Source: a virus. From it: DNA of 51,519 nt. This document shows positions 8,471-49,769 of the stretch, piece after piece. Location: positions 1-51,519 of IMG/VR virus record IMGVR_UViG_3300020183_000113; one strand, written 5' to 3'. The position numbers and the translations under genes were made by a program. Under the pieces are notes generated by a model. That model was not told the DNA's origin. It searched no databases and saw nothing but the letters and a program-made list of their open reading frames with translations. How positions within the stretch are numbered: the first letter of the stretch is position 1; the number at the start of each line of letters is the position of its first letter.

Positions 8471-8668
8471 CTACTGAGTTTTTTTAGATAAAGCCGTATT
8501 ACCTTTTTGTGTCTTAGGCTCGAAGGGACAATGTCTACATCCCGAACCACAACAATAACCTCTTTTGATATGATATTGTTCTGTCATTACTTGGAGCCCA
8601 TTTTCAATATAAAAATCAGAAGGGAGAAGTTTAACCTTCTCCCTTACTATATTTTTTTTTGTTTCCAT
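8471..8668 (-). CDS. DUF5522-like cysteine-rich small protein
   Basis: A 65-residue protein matching the pattern I know for DUF5522: DFYIENGLQVMTEQYHIKRG followed by YCCGSGCRHCPF. Four cysteines in CCxxxCxxC spacing plus a histidine suggest metal binding, but no function is established. The family is common in Bacteroidota chromosomes, so this is likely host-derived (inference). Its ATG overlaps the stop of the ribonucleotide reductase gene by one base (TAATG), suggesting translational coupling and perhaps a linked role. Confidence 0.75.
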   Translation of the reverse strand: METKKNIVREKVKLLPSDFYIENGLQVMTEQYHIKRGYCCGSGCRHCPFEPKTQKGNTALSKKTQ

Positions 8669-10530
8669 TAAACTAATGTGACTTCACATGTGCCACCAGC
8701 ACATGCGACCTCTCCGTTCAAATCGGTGTTATCATCTACCTCTACTATTTTGGATAAATCAACATCTTTTAGTGTTGCAAGGAGTTCGTCATATTTTTCT
8801 TTGGTACAATCTTCAAATGGTGCTTGAATGTAAGTTCCCCCGTCATAAGGGAGTACTGAAAGACCATTATAAAATTCTTTATTTTCCCACATCCACTCAC
8901 CTACAGCTGGCCATTCATGTTCACGAATTGAAACTGTTGCAGATACGTTATGTGCGTTTGAACCACTTCTATGACCCGGTCTAATCCATTCTTGTTGAAC
9001 TCTTTTTACTCGTTCAAGTAATTGGATTGGTGATTCATTTCTTATAATGGAACCTTCAGGTGCCTTTTGTGGTATACCAATCACTGCTGTGTCGTGTGGT
9101 CTGAAATATTCGTCTTCTACCAATTCAAAGTGCTTGTTTTTAAGATAGGAATAGATAGATTCATTTTTACCAACTCTGAGTCTTCTGATGTAATATTCAT
9201 TATGCCAAGCATGAATTCCTGAAGATGTTCCTAAAGTTAGTGAAGTGGTTCCGGCTGGTTTCACAGTAGTGGTTCTAGCCGCAGGGTTAATACCAATCAA
9301 ATCAGCAACTCTTTTGTTTTCTTCCTTAACAATTTTGGCCGCCGCTTTCATATTCAATCCAAGAACTGCACCTGAACCAATGCCTGTCATAGAAATACCA
9401 ATAAGTCCGTCCTTCTCTGTTGTTCTTTGCCAAATAGGTCTTAAATAATGAAAATCAGTATAACCTGCTTGTAGTGTTCCAATAAACGATGCGGCTTTAA
9501 CCCTGTCCTCGTAATCCTCTTGTGAAACCACGTTCGAAACATTTACCTCTGTAAGATTACAAAATTGGAATGGTCTTAGTGCAATTTCACAACAAGGATT
9601 GGTTCCCCAATCTTTATCGTTGCTCAAATAAATTCCTGGTTCTCCAGCACCACTTACCTCAATTCTCTTCCACAAATCCATAAAATAATCTTTAGTTATT
9701 TTGTGTCTCATGAGAACTGCAGAGTTATTAGCTCTTCCTCTTTGAGGATTTTGTTCCCACCACTGACCACTTTTACTTCCTATCATTTCTTCGTCGGTAG
9801 CTGAAAAAAGTGAAATGAGAGCCGCTCTTCTAATACCACCAGCAAGGACTGCGTCAGCGATGTGGCATACCATGTCATGAACTTCAATCGGTCTGAGTTT
9901 ATCTCCGTTGTTCTTTGAATCTAAAATACCTTCGAGTTTAATCAAACACTCTTTAAGTGGTTGAGGACCCGGAGCTTTACCACCTGATGTTAAAAGTCGA
10001 GCACCTTTAGGTCTAATATCGCTAAAATCAAATTTAATATGTGAACCACCGTAGAAATATGATTTGACTAATACTTTTACAGCGTCAGCCCATCCTTCGA
10101 TTGAGTCAGCGACCAACCATCGTCTTCCTCTTTCCCTATTTGGTTTTATTATTTCAGGTAGAACATTTACATGATGTTTCTGAACAGAATATCCTACCCC
10201 TGTACCACCTAGTAACAAGAACATAATTTCAGAGAAAACTCTCCAATCATCAACGGGTGCGTATGCGCAGTTATAAATTCTGTTTGGTGAAATTTCAATA
10301 GGTTTACCGGCAAATTGCATTGACCTCATTGATGGAAGAACTTGTTTTTTGTAAACATACATGTAGTTATCTCGAATTTCTTTTTTTAATTGTGGAAACT
10401 TTTTGATATGCATATCCATGTTTCTTGTGACAAGCTCCTGCCACGTCTCTCTTCTTTTCAACTCAGGAATGTACTTGGCATACTTCATATACACTGTAAT
10501 CTCTGATAAAATTCTGTTTGAAATGTCCAT
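8668..10530 (-). CDS. nrdJ: Adenosylcobalamin-dependent (class II) ribonucleotide reductase
   Basis: A 620-residue monomeric-type class II reductase that makes deoxynucleotides from ribonucleotides with adenosylcobalamin as radical source. Visible signatures: NCAYAP with Cys88, GGTGVGYSVQ near 108, the active-site loop NPCCEIALRP with Asn311, Cys313 and Glu315, then FCNLTEVN with Cys324 (redox partner of Cys88 by homology with the Lactobacillus RTPR). The C-terminal tail CAGGTC (Cys610, Cys615) is the expected re-reducing dithiol. The protein is shorter than bacterial RTPR (about 740). No NrdB or NrdG partner is in the window, as expected for class II. It starts a small unit with DUF5522 and, by readthrough, gp25. 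It feeds the replication genes just upstream. Confidence 0.93.
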   Translation of the reverse strand: MDISNRILSEITVYMKYAKYIPELKRRETWQELVTRNMDMHIKKFPQLKKEIRDNYMYVYKKQVLPSMRSMQFAGKPIEISPNRIYNCAYAPVDDWRVFSEIMFLLLGGTGVGYSVQKHHVNVLPEIIKPNRERGRRWLVADSIEGWADAVKVLVKSYFYGGSHIKFDFSDIRPKGARLLTSGGKAPGPQPLKECLIKLEGILDSKNNGDKLRPIEVHDMVCHIADAVLAGGIRRAALISLFSATDEEMIGSKSGQWWEQNPQRGRANNSAVLMRHKITKDYFMDLWKRIEVSGAGEPGIYLSNDKDWGTNPCCEIALRPFQFCNLTEVNVSNVVSQEDYEDRVKAASFIGTLQAGYTDFHYLRPIWQRTTEKDGLIGISMTGIGSGAVLGLNMKAAAKIVKEENKRVADLIGINPAARTTTVKPAGTTSLTLGTSSGIHAWHNEYYIRRLRVGKNESIYSYLKNKHFELVEDEYFRPHDTAVIGIPQKAPEGSIIRNESPIQLLERVKRVQQEWIRPGHRSGSNAHNVSATVSIREHEWPAVGEWMWENKEFYNGLSVLPYDGGTYIQAPFEDCTKEKYDELLATLKDVDLSKIVEVDDNTDLNGEVACAGGTCEVTLV

Positions 10531-24217: not shown

Positions 24218-24530
24218 AATAATAAAAATAGTTTTCTACCGCCGACTTATAATCTTGTAATGACGAGACCAAAGGAAACGGAATTACCAAAATTGCGCCA
24301 TCGTAGATTGTATTTTCTAAACCTCCGAAAATTGGATTTGCTTGTAATATCAACCAGTTATATACCGGTGAATTATAAAACTGTTGTGATACCTTATCTA
24401 ACCTACTTTGACCCACTTTGTAAATGTAAGCTTTGTCGGTTGTTTTTGAAGGCAATGTGACAAATGGTACAACTGATTGTTGACCGTTGATGATGAATTC
24501 TGTATATCTATTGTAATATGGATAGCTCAT
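24207..24530 (-). CDS. Baseplate wedge protein, gp53-like
   Basis: A 107-residue protein with the compact gp53/LysM-like pattern: YTEFIINGQQSVVPFV, then GQSRLDKVSQQFYNSPVYNW and LILQANPIFGGLENTIYDGA, then IPFPLVSSLQDYKSAVENYF. T4 gp53 is 196 residues, so this is a short form that is common in T4-like phages of other hosts. It joins wedges around the hub with gp6 and gp25. It is nested between two giant genes: its stop overlaps the hub gene start by 11 bases and its ATG overlaps the stop of the 1658-aa gene by one base. Confidence 0.88.
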   Translation of the reverse strand: MSYPYYNRYTEFIINGQQSVVPFVTLPSKTTDKAYIYKVGQSRLDKVSQQFYNSPVYNWLILQANPIFGGLENTIYDGAILVIPFPLVSSLQDYKSAVENYFYYYGR

Positions 24531-27500
24531 TAGTTAAGTTTTACTTTAGAAATATACACACCGGTTCCATCTAATGAATTCCAAACCGCTTTTTCTCTAT
24601 TACTATTATTCACCGCACCTAAAGACCTAATGAGTTTTTTCTGACCGTCGTTTGGTGAGTCGTTCCTGTCGTAATCGAAGTCCCTAATTTTTCCTGTTGG
24701 ATATGGGGTAAAATTCAAGAAGTTTTTCAATTTATCTTTTTCTATGGTGTCCAAAAAGGTTGTTGTCAATTTATCTTCTTCTTCGAACGCTGGCTTAGCT
24801 TTCACTTCCCAATAAGAGTCAAATACTTTTCCATAGTCGCTATTTCTACTCGAACCACCTAAACTCGGGTTGGTTATCAATTCTCCAACTATAAAATTTT
24901 TAAAATTTTGATAGTTAGCCGATTTCAAATCCTGTGACAGTATAGCATACATTCTTCTGAATTGTAAGTCTCCAAAATTATCATTGAGACTGAATGGGAA
25001 GAATACTTGACTACCAAATTCTTGAGGAGAACTAGAATCCCAATATGTGAGATAACCTGTATAACCTGTTGAACCATCTTGGAAAGATGTTTGACTTTTC
25101 AAGGCATCATAATAACCATTTATCGCAACTCCAATTTTCTCTGAATCAGAAACTAATTCTGTGGCGGAGCCGTTTATCTCAGTCAAATCATAAATTACAA
25201 GATTACCATTTTTTTGTTGATATCCATCTGTACCATCAGCTGAACCGTTGACATATGGAATAGTATTGATTCTTGAAAGGTATTGAATGAAGTTTTGTTG
25301 ATTATATGTGGTATCTTGAATAATTTTCGCAATTGCATTCATAAAAGTATCCCTCTTGTTATTTACGAAATTTGTGTAATTCGTTTTGATTATTCTTTGT
25401 GCCTTCGCTGATAAATCAGGACCCGGTGAACCAATGAATTGCAAAAATGGGTCACTATCATTTTTTATATCCTTTAACATATCAGAAAATATGTTATCAA
25501 TCGAAGTTTGATAATTATCGTTTTTTCCGAACAACAACACATCCTCGGAAGGGTTCGATATCAAATTACCTTGTTGATAAATGTTCCCGAAGGACCAAAG
25601 TTGTAAAATGGCGTTGTTATACTGTGTGAAGGTGCTTCTACATTGATTGAACATTGTTTGGAAATAGGTTTGGGTTTGTGTTAGAACAGTATCCATGAAT
25701 TGGGTATAGCTTAATACACCTGTTTCTCCTGTTGAAGTTATAACATTAGTTGTTCTGTTTCCTATTGTCGATGCGTTCCCGAGTCCACTGGTATTTTGTA
25801 CTTGATTTGTGGTTGGTGCTGACGGTTGTTGTACCATTTGTAGAAAATCCTTACTCAAAACTTTTAGATTATTGAGGTCGGTTGGGTCAGCTCTTTCATC
25901 CCACATTTCAGTGTTGGCGTAATAATTGAATGACAGAGCGTTTTGAAGTCTATCTACAGCATTTGCAAGACCTTGTCCACCAACAAAATTGAATCCCAAA
26001 GTTACACTAGCAATCATCGGTTGAATACCGATACCTTCAGGATTTATATCCAAACCCTCAAATTGTAATTGAAGACTGTTGGGTATTATCTTTGTATGAT
26101 AAAAATCCCCTATTCTTAAAACAAGCACGGGAGGTATACCAAAAGCTGTGTTTATAGCGTTATTAAAGTCCAACTGATAACTTCCATCAGGTTGTGGGTT
26201 TACGGTTGGTATTGTGTCTCCGGGTCTCATACATTGTTGCAAGAAAGTTAATCTTGAGTTAAGACCCTCAGGTGTGGTCGAATGAAAACCAGGTTGGAAA
26301 AACTTCAATTTTTGTTTTAAACTGTCGTACACCATTGGAGTTTCCTGTTTTATTGTTTCGAAATAATCACACTCTGAAATAAGGTTTCTGACTATTCTTT
26401 TTGTGACCCAATCTGAATTTCGGTACTTTGGTTCTAAATCAGCTCGAGGAATTGGTCTTTCTTGATTTGTTTGTAATACTGAACCTGATGGAACATTTGG
26501 ATTTGCAGGTTTTTGTACGGGTTGTGGACTACTGACTATAATTTTACTAATGGACACTCTTCTACAAGCCATAGCCTTTGTACTAGTAATATTCGGATTA
26601 CTGTCGTAGGTATTCGAATCGTTATTACTTATTATCTCAGAACATTTTTCAGTTTGAATATTTGAGACAAACTGTGTACCTTGGTATTGTCTTACCTCAC
26701 CACTTTCTCCAAGAGCTTTAACTGTAGGAAAAATAATCCTTCTATTAGCAACAAAGTTTTTTAATTTTTCGTTGTCTGTAAAAAACTTTATAATACTTAC
26801 ACCTCTCCTCTCCGATAGTTTTATATTATAATCATTAGTACCAGGGGCAGATGCACTGGCTTCCAAGAAAATAGTCACCGTTGAATTGGAATTTTCTTTC
26901 AGGAATTGTGCCAATTGGTCGACAAACTTTTCTTTAATTTCGTCATAGTTCTCAGCAACTACATCATCAAAAAAACGGGCGGATTCACTTCCGGAAGGGT
27001 AGGTACCTCCAATTTGAGAATTGTATGTTGTATAATAATAATCGTAATCTTGCACAGTGTCACTGACAACGGGTTGGGCGTTGGGGAAGAAGAAGGCAAA
27101 GTTTTCAAATTGTTTGAATGTTTCCGATGGTGTCTGTTGTACAGGTTGAATTGTCACTTGACTTTTATTTTCTGTATCAAAAGCTCCTGATGCTTGATTA
27201 TCTCTGATTGCTCCAATCGCTTCTTTACTAGCATCCTTGGACGAGATAATTTGTTGTAATACGGCGAGTTCGTTTGGTGAAATTGTGTAGTATTTCTTAG
27301 CCAACTCATACAAATCATATTTCTTACAGCCGGCAAAAAATGAATCCAACAATCCGTTAATTCTCTCTGAGTTAGTATTATTAGCTAAAACTTTGTTTAC
27401 TATAACATTCAGAACTGATGGATGGTCAACAACAATTTTCCAAGAGATAGTTCCGTCTCGGGATGAATTTGTGTAGGTGTAAATCTTTTCTGTTCTACCC

Positions 27501-29506
27501 AAGAAATCTTGTTCCTTCCAACTTGCTCTTGAATTTTCTGAAAACGTTAACGCATAAGGTGGGAACCACATTACCCTACCACCATTCGGTCCTCTTTCAC
27601 AAATTGGTAGGTCGTTAACGTTCACTCCTGGTGTATGTGATGTTCTCCAAGCTAAGTTCTCTAATGAGAACATATATTTTTTGGCATAAGCTTGGTCTCC
27701 AGTACCTATAAGATTGGAAGAGTCTTGACCTCCCTCTTGTTTGTTCGGGTAAATATTAAGATTATATGTTTTATCAAATACCGAAAAGGAAAATCTTCTA
27801 TTTTCATTAACAACCCCATCAGTTTTTTGCAAATCGGAATATTGGGCGTATGGAAGGTCTTTAGAAAAAACTCTACAGTATTCGGTTCCAACCTCTTGTC
27901 CTAATGAACCAACATAAGTTAATACTCTTGAACCCTTTGTCATTTCTCTATACCCGTCATGAAAGACTTTACTCACTTGGTCAATAGCGTTTCCGACGTG
28001 TTGTAATCTTCTACCACCATTAGGTTGACTATCTATCAACCTCTGTGTGTCATCCATAATAGAACCCCCCCTGAATGGAATATTTGTGGATTCTGTTGTG
28101 ACAAATGATGAAGGTCTGAAGTTTTCATCTGGGTTTGTTACTTCACCACCTATACCCACCTTTTTTCCAGCATTTCCTTTATATTTCGGAGAAACCCATG
28201 TTAGGCCACCCTCTAATCCGCCACCATCAATATAAACTGGAGCATTTGCTCCTAATCTTATTTCTCTATTCGGACCCTCATATAATTGAGCTAATTCCGT
28301 GGGTCCATATACAGGTGCCTGAACTTCTGCTCCAAATTCACTGACGGGTAAGTCTCCTGTAGGTGAAAATATTTGAGAGGGGTCAGAAGTAATTGAGCCA
28401 ATATAAAAATTAGAATTATTTTGCGTGGTTCCTACAATTGCACCACCCATTCTATCAAAAATATTTCTGTTGTATTCTGGTTTGAATCTATTGAATTTAA
28501 GGTTTCCGAATAATCTTGACCTTTGACCACCACCCGTATTATTCAAAAAAATTTGTGAACCTGTTCGGTCCACTCCTAGTAATCTCGAAAAAAATTTTCC
28601 AACCCCTGTATTTGATTGTCTGAATGCATTTGTGATTTGTTGAATAGTTGTTGGTTGTCCTAAGACAATACTTGTATCGAAATAGGAACCTGGTATTGGT
28701 GAAACAGGTATTATACTGCCCGCCAATCTCAAAGCAAAGTCTGCTGCCGCTAAAACAGGGTTTTGTGGTACTGTGATTGTGAAGTTTGGTTCAATTAATG
28801 GTACTCTTGTTGTGACTAAATTAAGAATGTCAGTACCGCTATCCACATTGAAAAGATTTGCCCTTGCCAAAGTATTTTGGAAAATGTTGGCGGCTATTCT
28901 GTCTTGGAATTCTTTTTTAAGTGTCCTTGCTCCTAATTGAGCTAAAAAGGAGTCTTGACTCATTAATCCATTACTTCCCAAAGGGTCAGGGTTTAAAAGT
29001 ATAGATATTGGAGCATATGATGAAGGAACAAAAGTTGTAGGGTATGGTTGATTATTATAAAGGTTCGGAGTACCACTTCTTATAAAGTCTGGTTGAGTAA
29101 TGTACTCACCACTATCTAATACTTCTTCTGTTCCATTAGAATAGGCGTTTTTGGGCTTCCAATTGTATTGTTCGATAGATGCTTGGTCCAATATTCGAGC
29201 ATCTTGTTGACCAGGCCCATATTCTCCCTCATTGGATTTAGAATTTGTTAATGCTCCAGGGTCAGGTACCTGTCTATAACCTCCTTCAGCACCGTACTGA
29301 TTGAGAGGATATAATCTATTTGCTAAACTTGGCTCATCGATTAATTGGTCTGGACTATCCTGTACGGATAAATCAGTTTGAATATAGGGTACATTGTTTG
29401 AAAAAGAAGGTCTGTTGGGAGCCTTAGCGTAAGGTGTAAGGTTCCTTGTAATTAATTTTTTTCTGAACGCGTCTGAGTTGACTAAATCTAACGGACTTCC
29501 TTCCAT
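24530..29506 (-). CDS. Giant baseplate protein with embedded OmpA-like domain (1658 aa)
   Basis: Start set at the ATG 29506-29504 (MEGSPLDLV); a TTG directly upstream is ignored. Three regions can be read. Residues about 640-700: WFPPYALTFSENSRASWKEQ and FLGRTEKIYTYTNSSRDGTI, then VVDHPS, a motif seen in phage baseplate/tail-junction proteins. Residues about 850-990: an OmpA-C-like peptidoglycan-binding domain with TVTIFLEASASAPGTNDYN, LSERRGVSIIKFF near 900 and CRRVSISKI near 980. Residues about 1150-1210: LDINPEGIGIQPMIASVTLG and LQNALSFNYYANTEMWDER. The last part is helical. It lies between the tape measure and gp53, so a baseplate/tube-junction location is likely. The OmpA-like domain would touch the cell wall (inference). 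Confidence 0.8.
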   Translation of the reverse strand: MEGSPLDLVNSDAFRKKLITRNLTPYAKAPNRPSFSNNVPYIQTDLSVQDSPDQLIDEPSLANRLYPLNQYGAEGGYRQVPDPGALTNSKSNEGEYGPGQQDARILDQASIEQYNWKPKNAYSNGTEEVLDSGEYITQPDFIRSGTPNLYNNQPYPTTFVPSSYAPISILLNPDPLGSNGLMSQDSFLAQLGARTLKKEFQDRIAANIFQNTLARANLFNVDSGTDILNLVTTRVPLIEPNFTITVPQNPVLAAADFALRLAGSIIPVSPIPGSYFDTSIVLGQPTTIQQITNAFRQSNTGVGKFFSRLLGVDRTGSQIFLNNTGGGQRSRLFGNLKFNRFKPEYNRNIFDRMGGAIVGTTQNNSNFYIGSITSDPSQIFSPTGDLPVSEFGAEVQAPVYGPTELAQLYEGPNREIRLGANAPVYIDGGGLEGGLTWVSPKYKGNAGKKVGIGGEVTNPDENFRPSSFVTTESTNIPFRGGSIMDDTQRLIDSQPNGGRRLQHVGNAIDQVSKVFHDGYREMTKGSRVLTYVGSLGQEVGTEYCRVFSKDLPYAQYSDLQKTDGVVNENRRFSFSVFDKTYNLNIYPNKQEGGQDSSNLIGTGDQAYAKKYMFSLENLAWRTSHTPGVNVNDLPICERGPNGGRVMWFPPYALTFSENSRASWKEQDFLGRTEKIYTYTNSSRDGTISWKIVVDHPSVLNVIVNKVLANNTNSERINGLLDSFFAGCKKYDLYELAKKYYTISPNELAVLQQIISSKDASKEAIGAIRDNQASGAFDTENKSQVTIQPVQQTPSETFKQFENFAFFFPNAQPVVSDTVQDYDYYYTTYNSQIGGTYPSGSESARFFDDVVAENYDEIKEKFVDQLAQFLKENSNSTVTIFLEASASAPGTNDYNIKLSERRGVSIIKFFTDNEKLKNFVANRRIIFPTVKALGESGEVRQYQGTQFVSNIQTEKCSEIISNNDSNTYDSNPNITSTKAMACRRVSISKIIVSSPQPVQKPANPNVPSGSVLQTNQERPIPRADLEPKYRNSDWVTKRIVRNLISECDYFETIKQETPMVYDSLKQKLKFFQPGFHSTTPEGLNSRLTFLQQCMRPGDTIPTVNPQPDGSYQLDFNNAINTAFGIPPVLVLRIGDFYHTKIIPNSLQLQFEGLDINPEGIGIQPMIASVTLGFNFVGGQGLANAVDRLQNALSFNYYANTEMWDERADPTDLNNLKVLSKDFLQMVQQPSAPTTNQVQNTSGLGNASTIGNRTTNVITSTGETGVLSYTQFMDTVLTQTQTYFQTMFNQCRSTFTQYNNAILQLWSFGNIYQQGNLISNPSEDVLLFGKNDNYQTSIDNIFSDMLKDIKNDSDPFLQFIGSPGPDLSAKAQRIIKTNYTNFVNNKRDTFMNAIAKIIQDTTYNQQNFIQYLSRINTIPYVNGSADGTDGYQQKNGNLVIYDLTEINGSATELVSDSEKIGVAINGYYDALKSQTSFQDGSTGYTGYLTYWDSSSPQEFGSQVFFPFSLNDNFGDLQFRRMYAILSQDLKSANYQNFKNFIVGELITNPSLGGSSRNSDYGKVFDSYWEVKAKPAFEEEDKLTTTFLDTIEKDKLKNFLNFTPYPTGKIRDFDYDRNDSPNDGQKKLIRSLGAVNNSNREKAVWNSLDGTGVYISKVKLN

Positions 29507-29520
29507 CAAAATTTATTTAT

Positions 29521-31504: not shown

Positions 31505-31693
31505 TTACTTTTTTTCAGAGTTAGATTCTATCCACTTATCCAAAAGATACTTCCTTATGAATATAGGCATAATGATAAAGTCTGAATATGAAATATTCAA
31601 AAGGGTACTCAAATAATAAAATTCGTCTAATTGATTTTTCCTATACTCAGAAGAAAGGGCGAAAAAATTCAACCCCAAAACTAACGTTGACAG
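31505..31693 (-). CDS. Hidden +1-frame extension of the tail chaperone
   Basis: An open frame of 62 codons lies in the +1 frame relative to the gp26-like ORF and overlaps its last 15 codons. It has no ATG near its beginning; it could be reached by a +1 slip at GAA TTT TTT CGC (second TTT 31664-31662, where Phe tRNA can move to TTC before an Arg CGC codon), or from a TTG at 31672. The product after the slip is 51 residues: YRKNQLDEFYYLSTLLNI, then SDFIIMPIFIRKYLLDKW. That aromatic, MP-containing helical pattern resembles C-terminal parts of baseplate-hub chaperones (gp26/gp51 type). Fusion would give a 295-residue long form. The mechanism is inference; a plain overlapping gene or an assembly error remains possible. 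Confidence 0.55.
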   Translation of the reverse strand: MSTLVLGLNFFALSSEYRKNQLDEFYYLSTLLNISYSDFIIMPIFIRKYLLDKWIESNSEKK

Positions 31694-32393
31694 TCAGTTT
31701 TTCTCCTGATGGGGCTATTACAACTTTCCTTAAATCCAATCTCGGCTCATTATCATATAAAAAATTTCTTATGTATTTCGAATCCGCTATTGGTAATGAT
31801 TCAACAAACTTCGCAATCTCCTCCTTATTGGAATTTCCGTTTACTTCTTGTATTTGTCTTTGTAGTGTAAGTGTGACCTTTGGAGCGGGTCTTCCAGAGG
31901 GATAAGAAGCAACTATTTTTTGTATATCTGCGGTCTCCCCGTATGTTAATATTTTCAACTTTACTTGTGAGCCTGTTTTAGGTAAAGTGGTCAAATATGT
32001 CCCGTCTTCCGATGGTTCTTGTTTTGATTTTATAATATCTAATTCATCCAATCTAACAACAGAATCAAACCCCTTCTTCGTTTGTGGGTCAACAAGACTC
32101 AAGTTTATTTCGGGGCCAAAAGAGGTATTTCTTAAAAATATGAGAATGGCTTCTATATCCCCTTCTAATAAATCTTCTATTTTAAGGTCTGGTTCATAAA
32201 TTTTGTTCCTTAATAAAAGGGTTGTAATATCGTCTGAACCACCTAGAAGAATATTTTCATCGGAAGCTGTAAGATAACCTACCTTAATTGATTTTTTCTT
32301 GTTTTTATAAAATATACCTTGTGAAGGTAGAGGCACCACGTCATGTGGTAGTGACATCATTTGTTGTCCGTATTCTCTTGATTTGTCTTCCAT
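31647..32393 (-). CDS. Baseplate hub / tail assembly chaperone, gp26-like
   Basis: A 248-residue protein with VVPLPSQGIFYKNKKKSIKV near residue 20, then ASDENILLGG, TTLLLRNKIYEPDLKIEDLL and ILIFLRNTSFGPEINL, the sequence of elements seen in gp26-type hub/chaperone proteins of T4-like phages. The last residues FGVEFFRPFF are hydrophobic. It lies between tube and tape measure genes, where tail assembly chaperones sit in most phages. It starts 5 bases after a strong terminator that follows the tube gene, so its expression should be lower than the tube's. Its 3' end overlaps a second frame, described separately. Confidence 0.75.
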   Translation of the reverse strand: MEDKSREYGQQMMSLPHDVVPLPSQGIFYKNKKKSIKVGYLTASDENILLGGSDDITTLLLRNKIYEPDLKIEDLLEGDIEAILIFLRNTSFGPEINLSLVDPQTKKGFDSVVRLDELDIIKSKQEPSEDGTYLTTLPKTGSQVKLKILTYGETADIQKIVASYPSGRPAPKVTLTLQRQIQEVNGNSNKEEIAKFVESLPIADSKYIRNFLYDNEPRLDLRKVVIAPSGEKLTVNVSFGVEFFRPFF

Positions 32394-32465: not shown

Positions 32466-32954
32466 TTAATATACTAACACACATCTATCCATTCTTAGAC
32501 CTGCTGTAATGTCAGCTAAATTGTCTGTGTTGTATGCTAAAGAACCAAAGTTGACAGATGTCAAGAATGTTCCGAATAAAATCCATTTTTCCACAACCAC
32601 ACCTGTTGGGTCTAACATTTCGAGGTCGATATCTTTTTTGTAGCCCGCGGCATATCCCATACGACCTGTGACCGACTCAGCATGTAAACGAACCCACTCC
32701 ATCAAAGCTTGTGCTGCGGATGGTCCAATCGGGTCTCTGAATTTAACTTGTATTTCATCCCAATTGAATCTTCCCGCAACGTATGTAGATGTGTTTAGGA
32801 ATTCTATTTCTTTTGATGCAATTTTAATTGATGGTCTAGATGTTGACTCAACAAACCATTCATTAATACCTAAAGAAGAAGGAAACCTCAAAATAAATCG
32901 GTTTTGTCGTTTCGGTTCATACGGTATCGGCATTTTCATTAATAAATCAGCCAT
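32466..32954 (-). CDS. Tail tube protein, gp19-like
   Basis: A 162-residue protein matching T4 gp19 (163 residues) in length and pattern: PYEPKRQNRFILRFPSSLGI, then STSRPSIKIASKEIEFLN, FNWDEIQVKFRDPIGPSAAQ, DIDLEMLDPTGVVVEKWILF and FGSLAYNTDNLADITAGLRM. It stacks as hexameric rings around the tape measure to form the inner tube of the contractile tail. Followed by a strong terminator. An ATATTTATA box with exactly 33 bases to the ATG precedes it, as for the sheath gene. Confidence 0.93.
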   Translation of the reverse strand: MADLLMKMPIPYEPKRQNRFILRFPSSLGINEWFVESTSRPSIKIASKEIEFLNTSTYVAGRFNWDEIQVKFRDPIGPSAAQALMEWVRLHAESVTGRMGYAAGYKKDIDLEMLDPTGVVVEKWILFGTFLTSVNFGSLAYNTDNLADITAGLRMDRCVLVY

Positions 32955-33907: not shown

Positions 33908-36900
33908 TTATATATTTTCGAACGAAGCTCCTGTCGGTGTAATAAAGAATTCAATATCTATGAATTCAAGAGCTTTAGTTGGTTTAAGGTAAATTTTACC
34001 TGTGAGAGTGTTTCTGTCCAAATCTTCTGGAGAAGAAGAAACGGTCACACGGAAATCGTAAAGACCTCTATCTCTTCTGATACCATCAAGGATTGGGTTA
34101 ACACTATCTAAGAATTGTTGTCTTACTATTTGGTCGTTCTGTTCGAATAGTAATCTTACAGCTACAGCTGAGATTAACTTACGAGCTTGTAATAACAGTC
34201 TTCTTACGTTCAATCTATTCAAAGCTGTATCTGCAATTTGAAGTGTTTTATTTCCAAATATTACAGTTCCAACATCTGCAAATGTTGCTATAGGATTTAA
34301 TCTTCCTTGATATAAAGTATCTCTATCTTCTTGAGTCAACTTGATACGAGCTTTAATTGAATTTACTAAACCTCTCGTATAACCCGCTGTTGCGAACCAT
34401 GGGAAAGAGATATTATCAGTAAGTGCTAAATTTCTACAAACTTCACCAGTTGCCGGTAGATAGATTTGAGTATTATTTACGGTATCTCTTGTTAAAATCC
34501 AAGGGTAATATGTTGCTGTATAGTTTGAGTCGATACCAGTATTATCAAGGTTGTCGACCGCTTCTTGTGGGTAAATAATTTGAAGTGAATCAGTTGAATC
34601 AGGTGTGTACATGTCGTAATCAGGTGTAGTCACTATATAAACACTATCTGCTCTCTGGAATTGAATCATGTCAATTGCCTCTTCGCACAAATTAGAATTG
34701 TTTACGTAGTCTATACTCGAGGTTGCGAACAAATTGATGTTTGTTGACTCTGGATTTCTATAAGTAAGAATACCAAGTAAGTAAGCATAATAGTCAGTAT
34801 TAGCAAAATCTTGAGTGTTATTTTCTACAATAATTCTCTTGAAAATACCTTCACCTGTAGCATTGGGATATCTTATAGAGGTCGCTGCTCCTGCAAGATA
34901 TCCAGAAGAACCAAGTTGGAATTCATCTTTATTAGTTCTAAATTCTCTGTATATGTCCCATCCATCGAAACCACCAGCAAAACATACTGTGTATTTCCTA
35001 GCAAATATAAAATAATAAGGATTTTCTTGTGACTCAGGGTCTGATGTAAATGTAGCTACTCCACATTCATATGCAGGTTCACCACTAGTTGTGTAAACGT
35101 TACCTATTGTAACAACCGTAGCACCAGAGTCCATATGAAATCCTTTAGTTAATCCATTCCAAGGGATTGATTCAGTTGTATCTGCCCAATCAATCTGTGG
35201 GTTTTGTTGACCCAAATATTGAAGAAATGAATCATCAATGCCAAAATATGATGAAAAACCTAAGTAACTTCTTCTTATAACATCACCAGGTGAATTTACT
35301 GTAGACGCAAAAGGTGGGTTAAAAATAGGTTCTTGGGGATAATAATATTTTATTTTGTAAACGATATATGGAGCATAATTAGAAGATGAACCATATTCTC
35401 TCTGAGTATACCCGTTGAAACCACATGGTAATGCATCTATTGGAGCGTTTTCCGCCATTTCAATCATAATATATTTTGATAACAAAATATATTCACCGTC
35501 TGATGAACCAATTTTTTTAGCAATAAAATTGTTAGAACTTGGGTCCAAATTACAGTTGGTAAACTTTTCAATAACAATTGGATTTGTATCTGTGTCAAAG
35601 AAGTTTCTGACTAAGACATCAAAAGACATATTATTAAATGACAAATTAGTAATTGATACTTTCACTTCAGTGTTTGCCGCATTACCATCAGAAATTGATA
35701 TAAATCTGAATAAGTCATAAACTTTATTACCTCTCAACTCAGACACTAAGAAAGGTGTTTTCGGTGATTGATATTTTTGTAATTTCCACGCTATTGATGT
35801 TTGAGACGGGGTCCCCGCAGCAGGTCTTGAACCAGGTAAAGAAATTAAATTACAATTAAGACCTCTTACATAACTTGAATTATATCCATAGGATAGAGAA
35901 CCAGGGTAAATTTCCTCAACAAATAAAGGTACTTCATTTCTCGGTTTTTGAAAATTTTCTACTCCTAATACTTTTGTAATGTATTCTGATGAAGTAGACT
36001 GCAACGAAGTTTCAAATTGAAAGCTTTCTCCATTTTTTGTAACTCCTGAAACCCCGAACAAAGATAATGGATTTTGAGTTACCCCACTATATTGACCATC
36101 ACAAACCAATTTGACATCAGTAAGACCTGTTACTTCATATACAGGACCATGATTTTGACTTGATGAGTTATTTGTATATAAAGAAATTCCTCTTGACCTT
36201 AATGTAGCAACAACCATATTGTTCCAATCATGGAAAGCTGTGCCGGAGTAAGTAAAGATACTACCTGATACAGAGCCCGAGAAAACTCCCGTACTTGGAT
36301 TTGTCAATTGATTAACGGTCCAAGATACAGATGTCCCTGAATAATTATCTCCACTCTGTAAATCGAAGTTAGCATAGAACCAAGCATCATTTTGGCCATC
36401 CGTCAACTCATTATTATCAAGATTGACATTGTCAACATCAAACCCATCTGTGAATCCTGTAAAACCAGCGTTAATTAAATTGAAATAATTATTGCTAGGA
36501 ATAGAACCCCAAGAGAAAACAGTGTTACCTGATAAAGAGGTATTAGAAAAAATAGATTGTATAGCAGTATTCCAACTAGCATTGTAAGATGACGTACTTC
36601 CGTTATTAAGTGTGTAAACATTATTGAATACCGTAGAAATAGAAGCGGGTAAGCTAGTCCAATTGACGGTACCTCCCGTGTTACCTGAGAAATTACTTGT
36701 GAAATTTACTTGAGCGACGCTCGCATTAATTCCGATTGTTTTTGGGTCAGGATTAGCTACTATGGATATACTCCAAGACGGGCCCGCGTCGTATCCAGAC
36801 AATCCCAATACTCTTGTAACAAATAGTTGATTAGATTGTTGTAAATATGATTTAGCTATATACGCGGCTTCATACTTGGGAATTTGTGTATTTACAAACT

Positions 36901-37105
36901 TTGTTGGTTCAGTACCTCCGAAGAAGGCTTGAAACTCGTCAAAATTTGTTATGAAAACAGGTTCGAATGCAGGACCCTTGATAGTCTCTCCCACTAAACC
37001 TAATGTTGTTACACCAACGCTTTGTGCTACAAACGATAAGTCGGTCTCTGAAGTGTAGACGCCCGGTGAAACATAAACTTTTTGGTTTACAGTTGTTGTT
37101 GCCAT
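33908..37105 (-). CDS. Tail sheath protein, gp18-like, enlarged
   Basis: A 1065-residue sheath protein, against 659 for T4 gp18. The N terminus has the family opening QKVYVSPGVYTSETDLSFVA, VGVTTLGLVGETIKGPAFEP and FITNFDEFQAFFGG. The C terminus carries AVAVRLLFEQNDQIVRQQFL, NPILDGIRRDRGLYDFRV and KIYLKPTKALEFIDIEFFI, the part that meshes with neighbouring subunits. The conserved ends are separated by a long Ser/Asn/Thr/Gly-rich middle (roughly residues 120-700), which should form protruding domains on the tail surface. It contracts to drive the tube through the envelope. A strong terminator follows. Confidence 0.93.
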   Translation of the reverse strand: MATTTVNQKVYVSPGVYTSETDLSFVAQSVGVTTLGLVGETIKGPAFEPVFITNFDEFQAFFGGTEPTKFVNTQIPKYEAAYIAKSYLQQSNQLFVTRVLGLSGYDAGPSWSISIVANPDPKTIGINASVAQVNFTSNFSGNTGGTVNWTSLPASISTVFNNVYTLNNGSTSSYNASWNTAIQSIFSNTSLSGNTVFSWGSIPSNNYFNLINAGFTGFTDGFDVDNVNLDNNELTDGQNDAWFYANFDLQSGDNYSGTSVSWTVNQLTNPSTGVFSGSVSGSIFTYSGTAFHDWNNMVVATLRSRGISLYTNNSSSQNHGPVYEVTGLTDVKLVCDGQYSGVTQNPLSLFGVSGVTKNGESFQFETSLQSTSSEYITKVLGVENFQKPRNEVPLFVEEIYPGSLSYGYNSSYVRGLNCNLISLPGSRPAAGTPSQTSIAWKLQKYQSPKTPFLVSELRGNKVYDLFRFISISDGNAANTEVKVSITNLSFNNMSFDVLVRNFFDTDTNPIVIEKFTNCNLDPSSNNFIAKKIGSSDGEYILLSKYIMIEMAENAPIDALPCGFNGYTQREYGSSSNYAPYIVYKIKYYYPQEPIFNPPFASTVNSPGDVIRRSYLGFSSYFGIDDSFLQYLGQQNPQIDWADTTESIPWNGLTKGFHMDSGATVVTIGNVYTTSGEPAYECGVATFTSDPESQENPYYFIFARKYTVCFAGGFDGWDIYREFRTNKDEFQLGSSGYLAGAATSIRYPNATGEGIFKRIIVENNTQDFANTDYYAYLLGILTYRNPESTNINLFATSSIDYVNNSNLCEEAIDMIQFQRADSVYIVTTPDYDMYTPDSTDSLQIIYPQEAVDNLDNTGIDSNYTATYYPWILTRDTVNNTQIYLPATGEVCRNLALTDNISFPWFATAGYTRGLVNSIKARIKLTQEDRDTLYQGRLNPIATFADVGTVIFGNKTLQIADTALNRLNVRRLLLQARKLISAVAVRLLFEQNDQIVRQQFLDSVNPILDGIRRDRGLYDFRVTVSSSPEDLDRNTLTGKIYLKPTKALEFIDIEFFITPTGASFENI

Positions 37106-41877: not shown

Positions 41878-43407
41878 ATGAAAAAATTACAAGAAGAAAT
41901 CCAAAAAATCGAATATAAGATTTTGGAAAACAAAGTGAACGAAGAGAAAAATTTACTCCTCACAGAAATGAAAAAAATAGGGATAGAAAAATTACCCTAT
42001 TCTTACTCAGCCCTCAAAACATTCATTGACCCCGAGACAATGGAATTTCACTACAACAAACATTATAAGGGTTATGTAGATAAATTGAACGACGCATTAG
42101 CCAAAAAGAATTACGGTGATTTGGAACTTGAAAAAATAATTAAAAATATTTCAAGGTACGACAAAGTAATAAGAAATAACGCTGGTGGAGCATTCAACCA
42201 CGCAATGTTTTGGAATATGTTAACACCGAAGCCAAAAAAATTGACTGGCGAACTTTATAAAAAGATTACCAAAGAATATGGTACATTCACCAATTTCAAA
42301 AAGAAATTTGAAACGATTGCTAAAGACAGGTTTGGGTCAGGATGGGTTTGGTTACTATTAACTAAGAACGGAAATTTGAAAATAATGTCTACTCCAAATC
42401 AAGACAACCCACTTATGAACGTTGTTGAAGGTGGGGGATTTCCATTATTGGGTTTGGACTTATGGGAACATGCTTATTATCTCAAATACAGAAACAAAAG
42501 AGACGAATACATCACAAACTTTTGGAAAGTTGTAAATTGGGATTTTGTTTCCAAACTATTCGAAATGAAATCCAAAACGAACCTTATTGAATCAAAAATT
42601 GGTCAAGGGTTACTAATGGAAGGTAAAAAAAATTTTATTCAATCTTGTGGTAAAGAGGATGATAACTTTTTTCAATCCTTATTAGAAAACAACGAGATTA
42701 GTAAAATATATGGTGGTGGAATTTATACCGCTCTCAAAAAAATTTCTTGGTTAGAATTCAAAGAAAAAGACATCAGTCAAAACAGAATGCAAGGTTTCTA
42801 TAAAGATGGAACAAGGCACGACATTAGTTATTTAGCTGGTAATCACAGGGCTTTTTGTATGATAACAAAAAGTGTGAACGCCCTACTTTCTTCTTTGGGA
42901 AAACCAAAAATTTTATTGCGGGGGAAAAAACCCGAAGAACAAATTGAGGGAATCAAAAGACTTGTCAAAATACTTGTAATGGGCGCTGACAAAATTTTTA
43001 AAGAAGATTCTGCTTTTTACATTGCTATTATGTCAAACTTAGGTGAAAGTAAAATAAAAGGAGGAAAAGTAGAATCATGGTCCAAAGAAAGATTGGAAAA
43101 AGAATTTGGAGAAGGTAATGTAGAAATAAAAAGTTCTTTCGGGGCACAATCTGATTCTGAGGGGTTAGATTGCGAAATTCAGGTTGACGGTAAAATTTAC
43201 AAATCACAAATAAAGCCATTTTCTACATACTTTATTGAGGATGAAAATTATGTAGTACTAACACCAAGTAGTGTAAAAAAATATAATGTTGATTGGATGA
43301 TTTTCAGTAATTCATTCGAAACTATCGTATTCGAAAACAAAAATATCGAAAAAGGAATAAATGCCTACAAGTTTCCCGTGAGTGATTTTATTTATACCTT
43401 GAGATGA
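41878..43407 (+). CDS. Fe/Mn superoxide dismutase fused to nuclease-like domain
   Basis: A 509-residue fusion. Residues 1-38 are a charged helix. Residues 39-228 are an Fe/Mn superoxide dismutase with the complete metal site: His58 in FHYNKH, His108 in FNHAMFW, Asp194 and His198 in LDLWEHAYY, plus DRFGSGWVWL. Residues 236-509 are not part of any SOD. Near 425-446 there is SDSEGLDCEIQVDG then KIYKSQIKPF, which fits the PD-(D/E)xK nuclease pattern (Asp431, Glu433, Gln444, Lys446). The nuclease reading is a motif judgement. Catalysis: superoxide dismutation; role of the fusion is unknown. Flanked by SNF2 and gp13-like genes, so it may be a virion or host-response protein. Confidence 0.8.
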   Translation: MKKLQEEIQKIEYKILENKVNEEKNLLLTEMKKIGIEKLPYSYSALKTFIDPETMEFHYNKHYKGYVDKLNDALAKKNYGDLELEKIIKNISRYDKVIRNNAGGAFNHAMFWNMLTPKPKKLTGELYKKITKEYGTFTNFKKKFETIAKDRFGSGWVWLLLTKNGNLKIMSTPNQDNPLMNVVEGGGFPLLGLDLWEHAYYLKYRNKRDEYITNFWKVVNWDFVSKLFEMKSKTNLIESKIGQGLLMEGKKNFIQSCGKEDDNFFQSLLENNEISKIYGGGIYTALKKISWLEFKEKDISQNRMQGFYKDGTRHDISYLAGNHRAFCMITKSVNALLSSLGKPKILLRGKKPEEQIEGIKRLVKILVMGADKIFKEDSAFYIAIMSNLGESKIKGGKVESWSKERLEKEFGEGNVEIKSSFGAQSDSEGLDCEIQVDGKIYKSQIKPFSTYFIEDENYVVLTPSSVKKYNVDWMIFSNSFETIVFENKNIEKGINAYKFPVSDFIYTLR

Positions 43408-48092: not shown

Positions 48093-49769
48093 TTATGACT
48101 CTTTCCTTAAATCTCTACTGTAATGTTCAAATCTATTGTGTTCCGTTGGAGTGAGTAATAAAATACCCGGTTTCAATTCACCCTTCTTTGTCAATTGGTA
48201 CATATGACTCATCCAAGTTTGTTCAAAAGGATGCGCCCAAGTGGTGTCCAAAAACATCTTGACATTACCAGGTCTTGAAACAATCTGAGGCCAATTACAA
48301 TAATAAACTTCTCCTGTTGCGTATGGAACTCCTTTGTGAGATAGAATAGAATCATATTTTGCTTTGGGAGCATTTGGGTCAAGTCCCATTTGGGGTAGCC
48401 TTGGTTTTCCTGGCCAAAATTCTTCTCTCACATGTTGTGGTACATTATACCAAGACCATTGAATACTGTTGTCACCAAAAAACTCAGAATAATTAAGTTT
48501 GAGGAAATCAAAATTTTCTTTGTTAGTAATTTCTAATGACTTTGTGAAAAGATTTGGAACCATTCTGTTGAAACCATTTCTACACACTTCATCTGGTTTA
48601 CAGAAAAAGAACATGTCATCTTCAAAAAACAAATAGTAATCCAAATCGGTTTCGTTTTCAAAGTGTTCTGCAATAAATTGGCGTCCACCACAAATACCCA
48701 AATTATCTTTTTTTATTTCTTCAAATTGATATTCATCACAAATCTGACTGTAAATTAAATCTGTGTTTCGGTCAGTTGAATTATTCAATAAAAACTTTTT
48801 TGTTTTGAGTAAAAAATCTTTATCATATTCCATCATTGAATCAATCAACGTTTGAAATTGTTTGGGACTGTTAAAACCAATGACATATAAACCCACTTTA
48901 CTTGTATCAAGCTTGTTTTGTATGGTAGCCGACTTTTCGTTTTTCGGCACGAGCTTGTCATTTTTCAAGTCTTCAAAAAACTTACCAATTAATCCATTGG
49001 ATTCAATTTCGAAATAATTTACAAGGTCTGCATGTTTATAACAGATTATACTGAAGATAGACTCCTCAGTTCCCATGAAACCTTCTTCCAAAGTGGACCT
49101 TAATAATCCATAATAGATTGAATTCAAGTTTGATATCGTTTCTCTCGGTCCTCCAAAAAACCCACCTCGAGCAACTTTGTTAACTTTGGCACCAGCAATT
49201 TCATTCAATTTATTATATTCAAAACCATGAATCTCCCTTTCAGCATCGTAAGGGAAACAGATAAAAGAGAATTTTGAAATATATTTGGATAGTTTATCTA
49301 AAACCAAATCATGTGTAAAATAACCAGGGTGCACCGTATTTGTTAATCCACCATCAATCCAAAAAAGATATTCAGAATTAAACTTATCCATTATTTTAGC
49401 ATCGTTCAACAGAAATACTTTGGACATTACCAATGGATTATAATTTTCCAAACGAGCTTGTGTTGAGTCTTTCAACCAACCAGCCAAGTTTTTCCAACTA
49501 TTACTATTTCTGATATTTTGAATCAAAGGGAAAAATTCATTGTTTTGAAACCAAGAAAGGGGTCTTTCTATAAATTGTGTATTGGACTGTTTTCTTCTTG
49601 AGAAAACGAATTCTTCTAATTCTTTATCGCCATAGATAATTATGTTAGCATCAACCTCTAACAATTTTTCAAATTTATCTAAATAGTGTTGATAAGGTCG
49701 TGACCAACCTTCACTCAATTCGGACCTACCGATGTCCCATATACCTGTGACTAATGTTATATTACTCAT
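48093..49769 (-). CDS. Two-domain glycosyltransferase (HtrL/YibB-like plus GT-A)
   Basis: A 558-residue protein with two modules. Residues 1-270 match the HtrL/YibB (WlaTC) pattern: NITLVTGIWDIGRSELSE, NIIIYGDKELEEF and LFWIDGGLTN (WIDGG at 137-141), then FPYDAEREIHGFEYNK and KVARGGFFGGPRE. Residues 290-558 look like a second GT-A fold: KVGLYVIGFNSPKQFQTLID, then YYLFFEDDMFFF (EDD 383-385), the divalent-metal site. It should add sugars to an unknown acceptor, perhaps a virion protein, DNA or host surface polysaccharide. Overlaps the next gene by 8 bases. No signal peptide. Confidence 0.8.
   Translation of the reverse strand: MSNITLVTGIWDIGRSELSEGWSRPYQHYLDKFEKLLEVDANIIIYGDKELEEFVFSRRKQSNTQFIERPLSWFQNNEFFPLIQNIRNSNSWKNLAGWLKDSTQARLENYNPLVMSKVFLLNDAKIMDKFNSEYLFWIDGGLTNTVHPGYFTHDLVLDKLSKYISKFSFICFPYDAEREIHGFEYNKLNEIAGAKVNKVARGGFFGGPRETISNLNSIYYGLLRSTLEEGFMGTEESIFSIICYKHADLVNYFEIESNGLIGKFFEDLKNDKLVPKNEKSATIQNKLDTSKVGLYVIGFNSPKQFQTLIDSMMEYDKDFLLKTKKFLLNNSTDRNTDLIYSQICDEYQFEEIKKDNLGICGGRQFIAEHFENETDLDYYLFFEDDMFFFCKPDEVCRNGFNRMVPNLFTKSLEITNKENFDFLKLNYSEFFGDNSIQWSWYNVPQHVREEFWPGKPRLPQMGLDPNAPKAKYDSILSHKGVPYATGEVYYCNWPQIVSRPGNVKMFLDTTWAHPFEQTWMSHMYQLTKKGELKPGILLLTPTEHNRFEHYSRDLRKES

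Follow-up and report, generated by a model that had tools for sequence, protein, structure and literature searches.

The gp26-like locus

The window, by which we mean the whole 51.5-kb virus record analysed here, carries genes for a gp32-like SSB, a DnaB-like helicase, sheath, tube, gp15-like and baseplate proteins according to family searches, and its source is an uncultured T4-like myophage, a virus of bacteria. No relative was found in GTDB genomes and no host was therefore assigned; no tRNA genes were found within the 51.5-kb window. On the minus strand, the sheath gene (33908-37105) is followed by the tube gene, the gp26-like gene and a 640-aa ORF (Table 1). A gp19-like tube gene upstream and a putative tape measure protein (TMP) gene downstream, the latter identified by its position, give the gp26-like gene the placement of a tail assembly chaperone (TAC). 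The original prediction had located it between tail tube and tape measure: the tube was borne out by a family match, whereas the tape measure is named from its position, the 640-aa ORF having no family match and no match in phage records either. A weak BLASTP match links this ORF to the TMP of Flavobacterium phage immuto, and an annotated TMP occupies the same place in both immuto and SP-15.

The gp26-like protein belongs to the T4 gp26 family, as the original label implied: it matches PF12322 at 32.9 bits, above the curated cut-off of 24.5, and phrog_150 at 3e-11. Its AF2 model (pLDDT 86.6), built separately from that of the extension described below, retrieves T4-like hub proteins in a Foldseek search, and its only plausible solved match is the HK97 TAC 2OB9 (probability 0.60, with a weak E of 0.77). 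The gene ends with GAA TTT TTT CGC CCT TTC TTC TGA at 31647-31670 (-).

Several other genes of the window merit mention. In the sheath protein (1065 aa), the sheath match is confined to residues ~815-1063 and the ~800 N-terminal residues have no clear family. A 1659-aa tail-module protein (24530-29509, -) contains an OmpA-like stretch at about residues 860-937 that scores under the Pfam cut-off. The 509-aa protein at 41878-43407 (+) carries complete Fe/Mn superoxide dismutase domains (residues 37-226; PF02777, 2e-39), followed by ~280 residues without a Pfam match, and is not what a phage would ordinarily be expected to carry. Also encoded are a ribonucleotide-reductase-like protein matching a B12-type insertion domain (8668-10530, -) and an HtrL/YibB-like protein (48093-49769, -).

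Table 1. Features of the gp26-like locus and their positions in the window.
Feature	Position	Strand	Basis
gp26-like gene (248 aa), putative short form of the tail assembly chaperone (TAC-N, 'G' form)	31647..32393	-	ORF, ends ..GVEFFRPFF*, stop TGA
extension in the +1 frame, putative TAC-C ('T') domain, 51 aa + stop; ALSSEYRKNQLDEFYYLSTLLNISYSDFIIMPIFIRKYLLDKWIESNSEKK	31505..31660 (51 residues: 31508-31660)	-	conservation, coding selection, AF2
putative 295-aa frameshift fusion (TAC-NC, 'GT' form)	31505..32393	-	predicted; one base skipped at 31661-31664
slip codon 244 UUU, P site, predicted to re-pair +1 on UUC	31662..31664	-	TTT in 112/112 distinct clade A sequences
A-site codon 245 CGC, rare Arg codon	31659..31661	-	CGN in 112/112
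frozen CCT TTC TTC TGA after slip site	31647..31658	-	frame 0 end, overlaps start of +1 extension
stem S1 5' arm GCCCCA	31710..31715	-	complementary to 31672-31677
stem S1 3' arm UGGGGU	31672..31677	-	ends 7 bases before slip codon
UCAGGAGAAA, frozen at synonymous sites; possible S2 5' arm	31700..31709	-	complementary to UUUCUUCUGA (31647-31656)
tail tube protein, gp19-like	32466..32954	-	phrog_4542, 3e-23
putative tape measure protein, 640 aa	29553..31475	-	position alone

A conserved coding extension in the +1 frame

As originally predicted, the +1 frame runs past the stop of the gp26-like gene, being open from stop to stop for 62 codons (31505-31693, -) with no ATG at its beginning and a TTG at 31678; the longest +1-frame run within gp26 is 25 codons. 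Translation with one four-base step at codon 244 reproduces the proposed fusion of 295 residues, 51 of them new, with a predicted junction peptide VEFFALSSEYR, of the GVEFFALSSEYR kind.

The extension is maintained across the window's own clade (clade A), for which we assembled 161 loci with the site, comprising 112 distinct sequences. In 158 of the 161 loci the +1 extension is complete (46-62 codons); the other three run off the contig. Beyond the frame 0 stop, substitutions fall 25/14/61% on codon positions 1/2/3 (p ~1e-67, 44 disjoint close pairs), and the median dN/dS of the extension in this clade is ~0.44. The 51-residue extension is under protein-level selection. The arrangement is also recovered without a protein query: a DNA-level scan for the 21-base motif TTTTTTCGNCCTTTCTTCTGA alone returned at least 80 loci, and among the matches listed, frame 0 is open upstream in 80/80 and an extension-like +1 frame follows in 80/80 (77 by pattern, two at contig ends and one read by eye). 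This is far beyond chance.

Assembly errors can, in general experience, create overlaps of this type. A sequencing error or a decayed frame is refuted by the same arrangement in more than 250 contigs and in isolate genomes, and we give it practically no credence. An extension fused in one continuous frame, the sign of such an error, was found in none of the relatives read out, and related phages retain the +1 frame together with its extension and the TTT-CGN site.

The AF2 model of the extension consists of three helices (pLDDT 90) and resembles a TAC of phage BonaeVitae (TM 0.88, with a weak E of 0.56). Family searches with the extension alone gave nothing above cut-off and no direct phrog_634 hit.

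The predicted slip site

The 3' end of the gp26-like gene carries the elements of a UUU_CGN site: P-site UUU at codon 244 and A-site CGN at codon 245 are both conserved in every one of the 112 distinct sequences. Codon 245 is CGC in 49, CGG in 33, CGT in 29 and CGA in one, whereas elsewhere in the gp26 genes of this clade AGA and AGG make up about nine tenths of Arg codons. Among the larger ORFs of the window, CGC is the second rarest sense codon (7/16,078) and CGG the rarest (3). The codons that follow, CCT TTC TTC, are frozen at synonymous sites, with a same-codon frequency of 0.98 against 0.38-0.57 expected (112 sequences). The original prediction of a +1 slip of tRNA-Phe at TTT TTT CGC before a rare Arg codon can be refined: the slip is placed at the second TTT (codon 244, UUU to UUC) because many relatives have TTC TTT CGN, in which codon 243 is TTC. 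An extension in the -1 frame at an X XXY YYZ site, as in -1 frameshifted TACs, was not found here; the extension lies in +1.

Homologous sites in more distant relatives vary around the same pattern. Among 64 distinct sequences of the immuto-like clade, the site aligned with it is TTT TTT TGG (30), TTT CTT TGG (28) or TTT CTA TGG (4), and CCT GAC is frozen at the slip site; a third clade has TTC TTT TGG. The extension is again in +1 in SP-15 (TTT TTT CAC), LIS04 (TTT TTT AGT), GXN1 (TTC TTT CGT), RM378 and Mel-JY01 (both TTT TTT TGG) and the 484-kb huge phage LR756508 (TTT CTA). The wider relatives thus have a +1 extension at the same site, mostly UUU_CGN, UUU_UGG or CUU_UGG. A few variants (TTT CTA, TTT TTT AGT) re-pair less favourably if the second codon slips +1, and for these the first TTT is required.

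These variants also bear on other routes into the +1 frame. Transcriptional slippage on the six-T run of the window (GAATTTTTTCGC) would yield mRNAs short of one T, but many relatives that keep the frame have a run of only three or four T (GATTTCTTTCGC, TTTCTTTGG, TTCTTTTGG), and slippage of this kind does not require conservation of CGN; we regard it as very improbable. A -2 slip would reach the same frame with one extra Phe, and UUU UUU C does allow the re-pairing, yet TTC TTT CGN and TTT CTT TGG forbid it, which makes this route highly unlikely as well. Since C-broken runs of this type (TTC TTT CGN, TTT CTT TGG, TTC TTT TGG) recur, +1 re-pairing is the simplest route.

RNA pairing upstream of the predicted slip site

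Outside the slip site, the strongest synonymous constraint in gp26 lies at codons 227-231 (112 sequences), and Gly240 is GGG in 110/112. These positions fall in the two arms of a stem, S1, which is 98% paired in the 112-sequence set, where slid registers reach at most 66%. In 29 diverse sequences, 97.7% of cells are paired against at most 63% in slid controls, two pairs have changed on both sides (CG/AU/UA and CG/GC), and the covariation score is 0.296 vs 0.178 in shuffles, whose counts ignore relatedness. An A at 227.3 occurs in just two sequences, the sisters L141 and L159, and both carry T at 240.3. L399, one of the sequences recovered by the motif only, has G-C and U-A at two S1 pairs, and its compensatory changes and those of L141/L159 are separate events.

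S1 may stimulate the shift in the window's clade. Judging from the place of the stem, with its 3' arm ending seven bases before the slip codon, it would pull the ribosome forward. The immuto-like clade yielded no upstream stem; S1 would therefore be a helper and not a family requirement. Folding the window region as a single sequence gave nothing remarkable (z -0.83), and an Rfam search gave nothing above the gathering score.

A second candidate pairing, S2, joins UCAGGAGAAA with UUUCUUCUGA and is 93% paired in the 112 sequences and 88% in the 29 diverse ones, with slid controls at most 62% in the 112-sequence set. There is hardly any compensatory change and variation mostly breaks the pairing, and we do not claim S2 as a pseudoknot around the slip site.

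Kinship with T4 gp26 and gp51

T4 gp26 and gp51 (PF12322, phrog_150 and phrog_634) have been tabulated as hub assembly chaperones (PMC3004832). The window shares with them a gp26-like N part, but T4 has two separate genes where the window would use a frameshift. T4 gp51 matches phrog_150 over its whole length (3e-84) and also phrog_634, a family of cyanophage proteins named 'hub assembly catalyst'. Successive profile matches lead from the window extension to the immuto-like extension (8e-15), from there to cyanophage gp51 (1e-5) and on to the T4 gp51 C-terminus (2e-6); the link is transitive, the direct profile match between window extension and T4 gp51 being non-significant (0.06). By these profile comparisons, T4 gp51 is a gp26-like part followed by the same kind of C-terminal extension.

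Modes across relatives

A first scan, which gave 80 related loci, and further scans of viral contigs yielded 264 readable gp26 3' ends, and a crude open-length rule scored the extension as +1 in 259 of them. Of the three exceptions read individually, L116 has both frames open with the +1 extension present. The other two, L178 and L184, encode the extension separately, in a gene that begins at an ATG and adds residues at the N-terminus; this two-gene form is nested within the +1 clade in the gp26 tree and is probably derived from it. Judging from these frames, the +1 shift is the norm in this large T4-like group. The description of a +1 slip as unusual in the original prediction holds insofar as classic TACs shift -1, but not in the sense of a lone oddity. 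We also note that annotated records miss the long form.

A second group has the extension in -1. In T4-like cyanophages (L274, L276-L355), the end of gp26 is invariably T TTT TTC and the annotated gp51 is readable in -1; the -1 extension together with a nearby ATG just after the stop was present in 35/35 read, and cyanophage gp51 may be made both as a fusion and alone. L086 and L273 likewise fall in the -1 group, whose sites are T TTT TTC or T TTT TTT, and XacN1, RAS14, IC12 and LR756511 also have the extension in -1. A scan with the XacN1 gene as query found nothing. About five mode changes are needed on the gp26 tree, in which several long branches make deep placements unsure.

The two-gene forms raise the question of whether the window extension, too, could be a separate gp51-like gene, translated from its own start or by ribosomes that re-initiate, in a coupled manner, once they have reached the gp26 stop. 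In cyanophage records gp51 is annotated as a gene of 63 aa that starts at an ATG of its own, L178 and L184 are a true two-gene form, and the +1 frame of the window does offer the TTG at 31678. That TTG, however, exists because TTTGGGG is conserved, and in 10 of the 112 distinct sequences no start codon (ATG, GTG or TTG) occurs between the upstream +1 stop and extension residue 9; in several of these start-less relatives the stop directly precedes NFF. A separate start would also leave unexplained both the selection on UUU CGN and the conservation that begins at the first residues of the extension, and we consider it improbable. AGGAGA (31702-31707) was considered as a Shine-Dalgarno sequence for an internal start and set aside, as its distance from the TTG is 23 bases and the same 10 relatives have no usable start.

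Discussion

On comparative sequence grounds, we consider it very likely that programmed +1 ribosomal frameshifting makes a short TAC-N and a long TAC-NC from the gp26-like gene, the counterpart of T4 gp26/gp51 and lambda G/GT. The conserved +1 frame and the fitting neighbours support the frameshifted tail assembly chaperone originally proposed. One gene would thus supply two chaperones. Most ribosomes would stop at UGA and release the 248-aa short form, and a minority would pause while tRNA-Phe occupies UUU (codon 244) and the A site presents the rare codon CGC; re-pairing of this tRNA in +1, from UUU to UUC, would then add the 51-residue extension. In the window's clade, S1 would probably re-form behind the ribosome and favour forward movement. 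By analogy with lambda gpG/gpGT, the tape measure protein would be coated by both forms, and tail tube subunits would be brought in by the C domain.

Like the lambda G/GT TACs, the gene lies just before the putative tape measure gene and would have a short form and a frameshift-extended long form, and the predicted three-helix C domain of the window resembles an annotated TAC, at a weak E-value; the classic lambda-type cases, however, shift -1 and the window would shift +1. T4-like TACs of cyanophages and jumbo phages that shift -1 share the gene pair, its place and the terminal run of Phe codons, but their extension is in -1. According to PMC12846349 and PMC10885494, T4-like TAC genes were identified by Vladimirov, Gautam and Davidson (Virology 2022), whose subject is the pairing of gp26 and gp51 as TAC-N/TAC-NC, and some have -1 poly-T sites while others have paired short and long genes. 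A TAC that very likely shifts +1 has been described in the haloarchaeal myovirus HSTV-2 (PMC5009743); it differs in belonging to an archaeal virus.

The UUU_CGN +1 motif itself is known from influenza A PA-X and amalgaviruses (PMC5052127, PMC5009743). P-site UUU, A-site CGN and direction are identical to those of the window, but these are RNA viruses of eukaryotes without homology to it, and the accessible parts of the two papers report no upstream stem. In E. coli prfB (CUU_UGA), CUU re-pairs to UUU as it would at the immuto-like CUU_UGG; unlike the phage sites, prfB makes use of a stop codon, and a Shine-Dalgarno sequence lies near its slip codon. In the open literature, outside which most subscription papers lie, our search yielded no report of a phage UUU_CGN site or of TACs that shift +1 in this group. 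The +1 direction, the phage UUU_CGN and the 5' stem look new, whereas T4-like TACs as such were already published in 2022.

More tentatively, and a little short of an even chance in our judgement, phages may use UUU_CGN driven by an upstream stem, possibly part of a pseudoknot spanning the slip site, that pulls the ribosome one base forward, with the T4-like TAC family having changed repeatedly among shifting +1, shifting -1, a duplicated gene and a split gene. If true, a structure on the 5' side would do for this bacterial +1 element what a pseudoknot on the 3' side does for -1 shifting. The GT frameshift arrangement has been reviewed as conserved 'except T4' (PMC5009743); T4 is that review's exception to the rule of frameshifted TACs, yet a large T4-like group appears to shift, and in +1. 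The match to a site of eukaryotic viruses suggests that, on both kinds of ribosome, tRNA-Phe reading UUU is prone to slip forward when a slow CGN codon follows. Finally, the natural variants at one homologous spot (UUU_CGN, UUU_UGG, CUU_UGG, -1 U_UUU_UUC, duplicated and split) constitute a test set for the evolution of shift direction and its stimulators.
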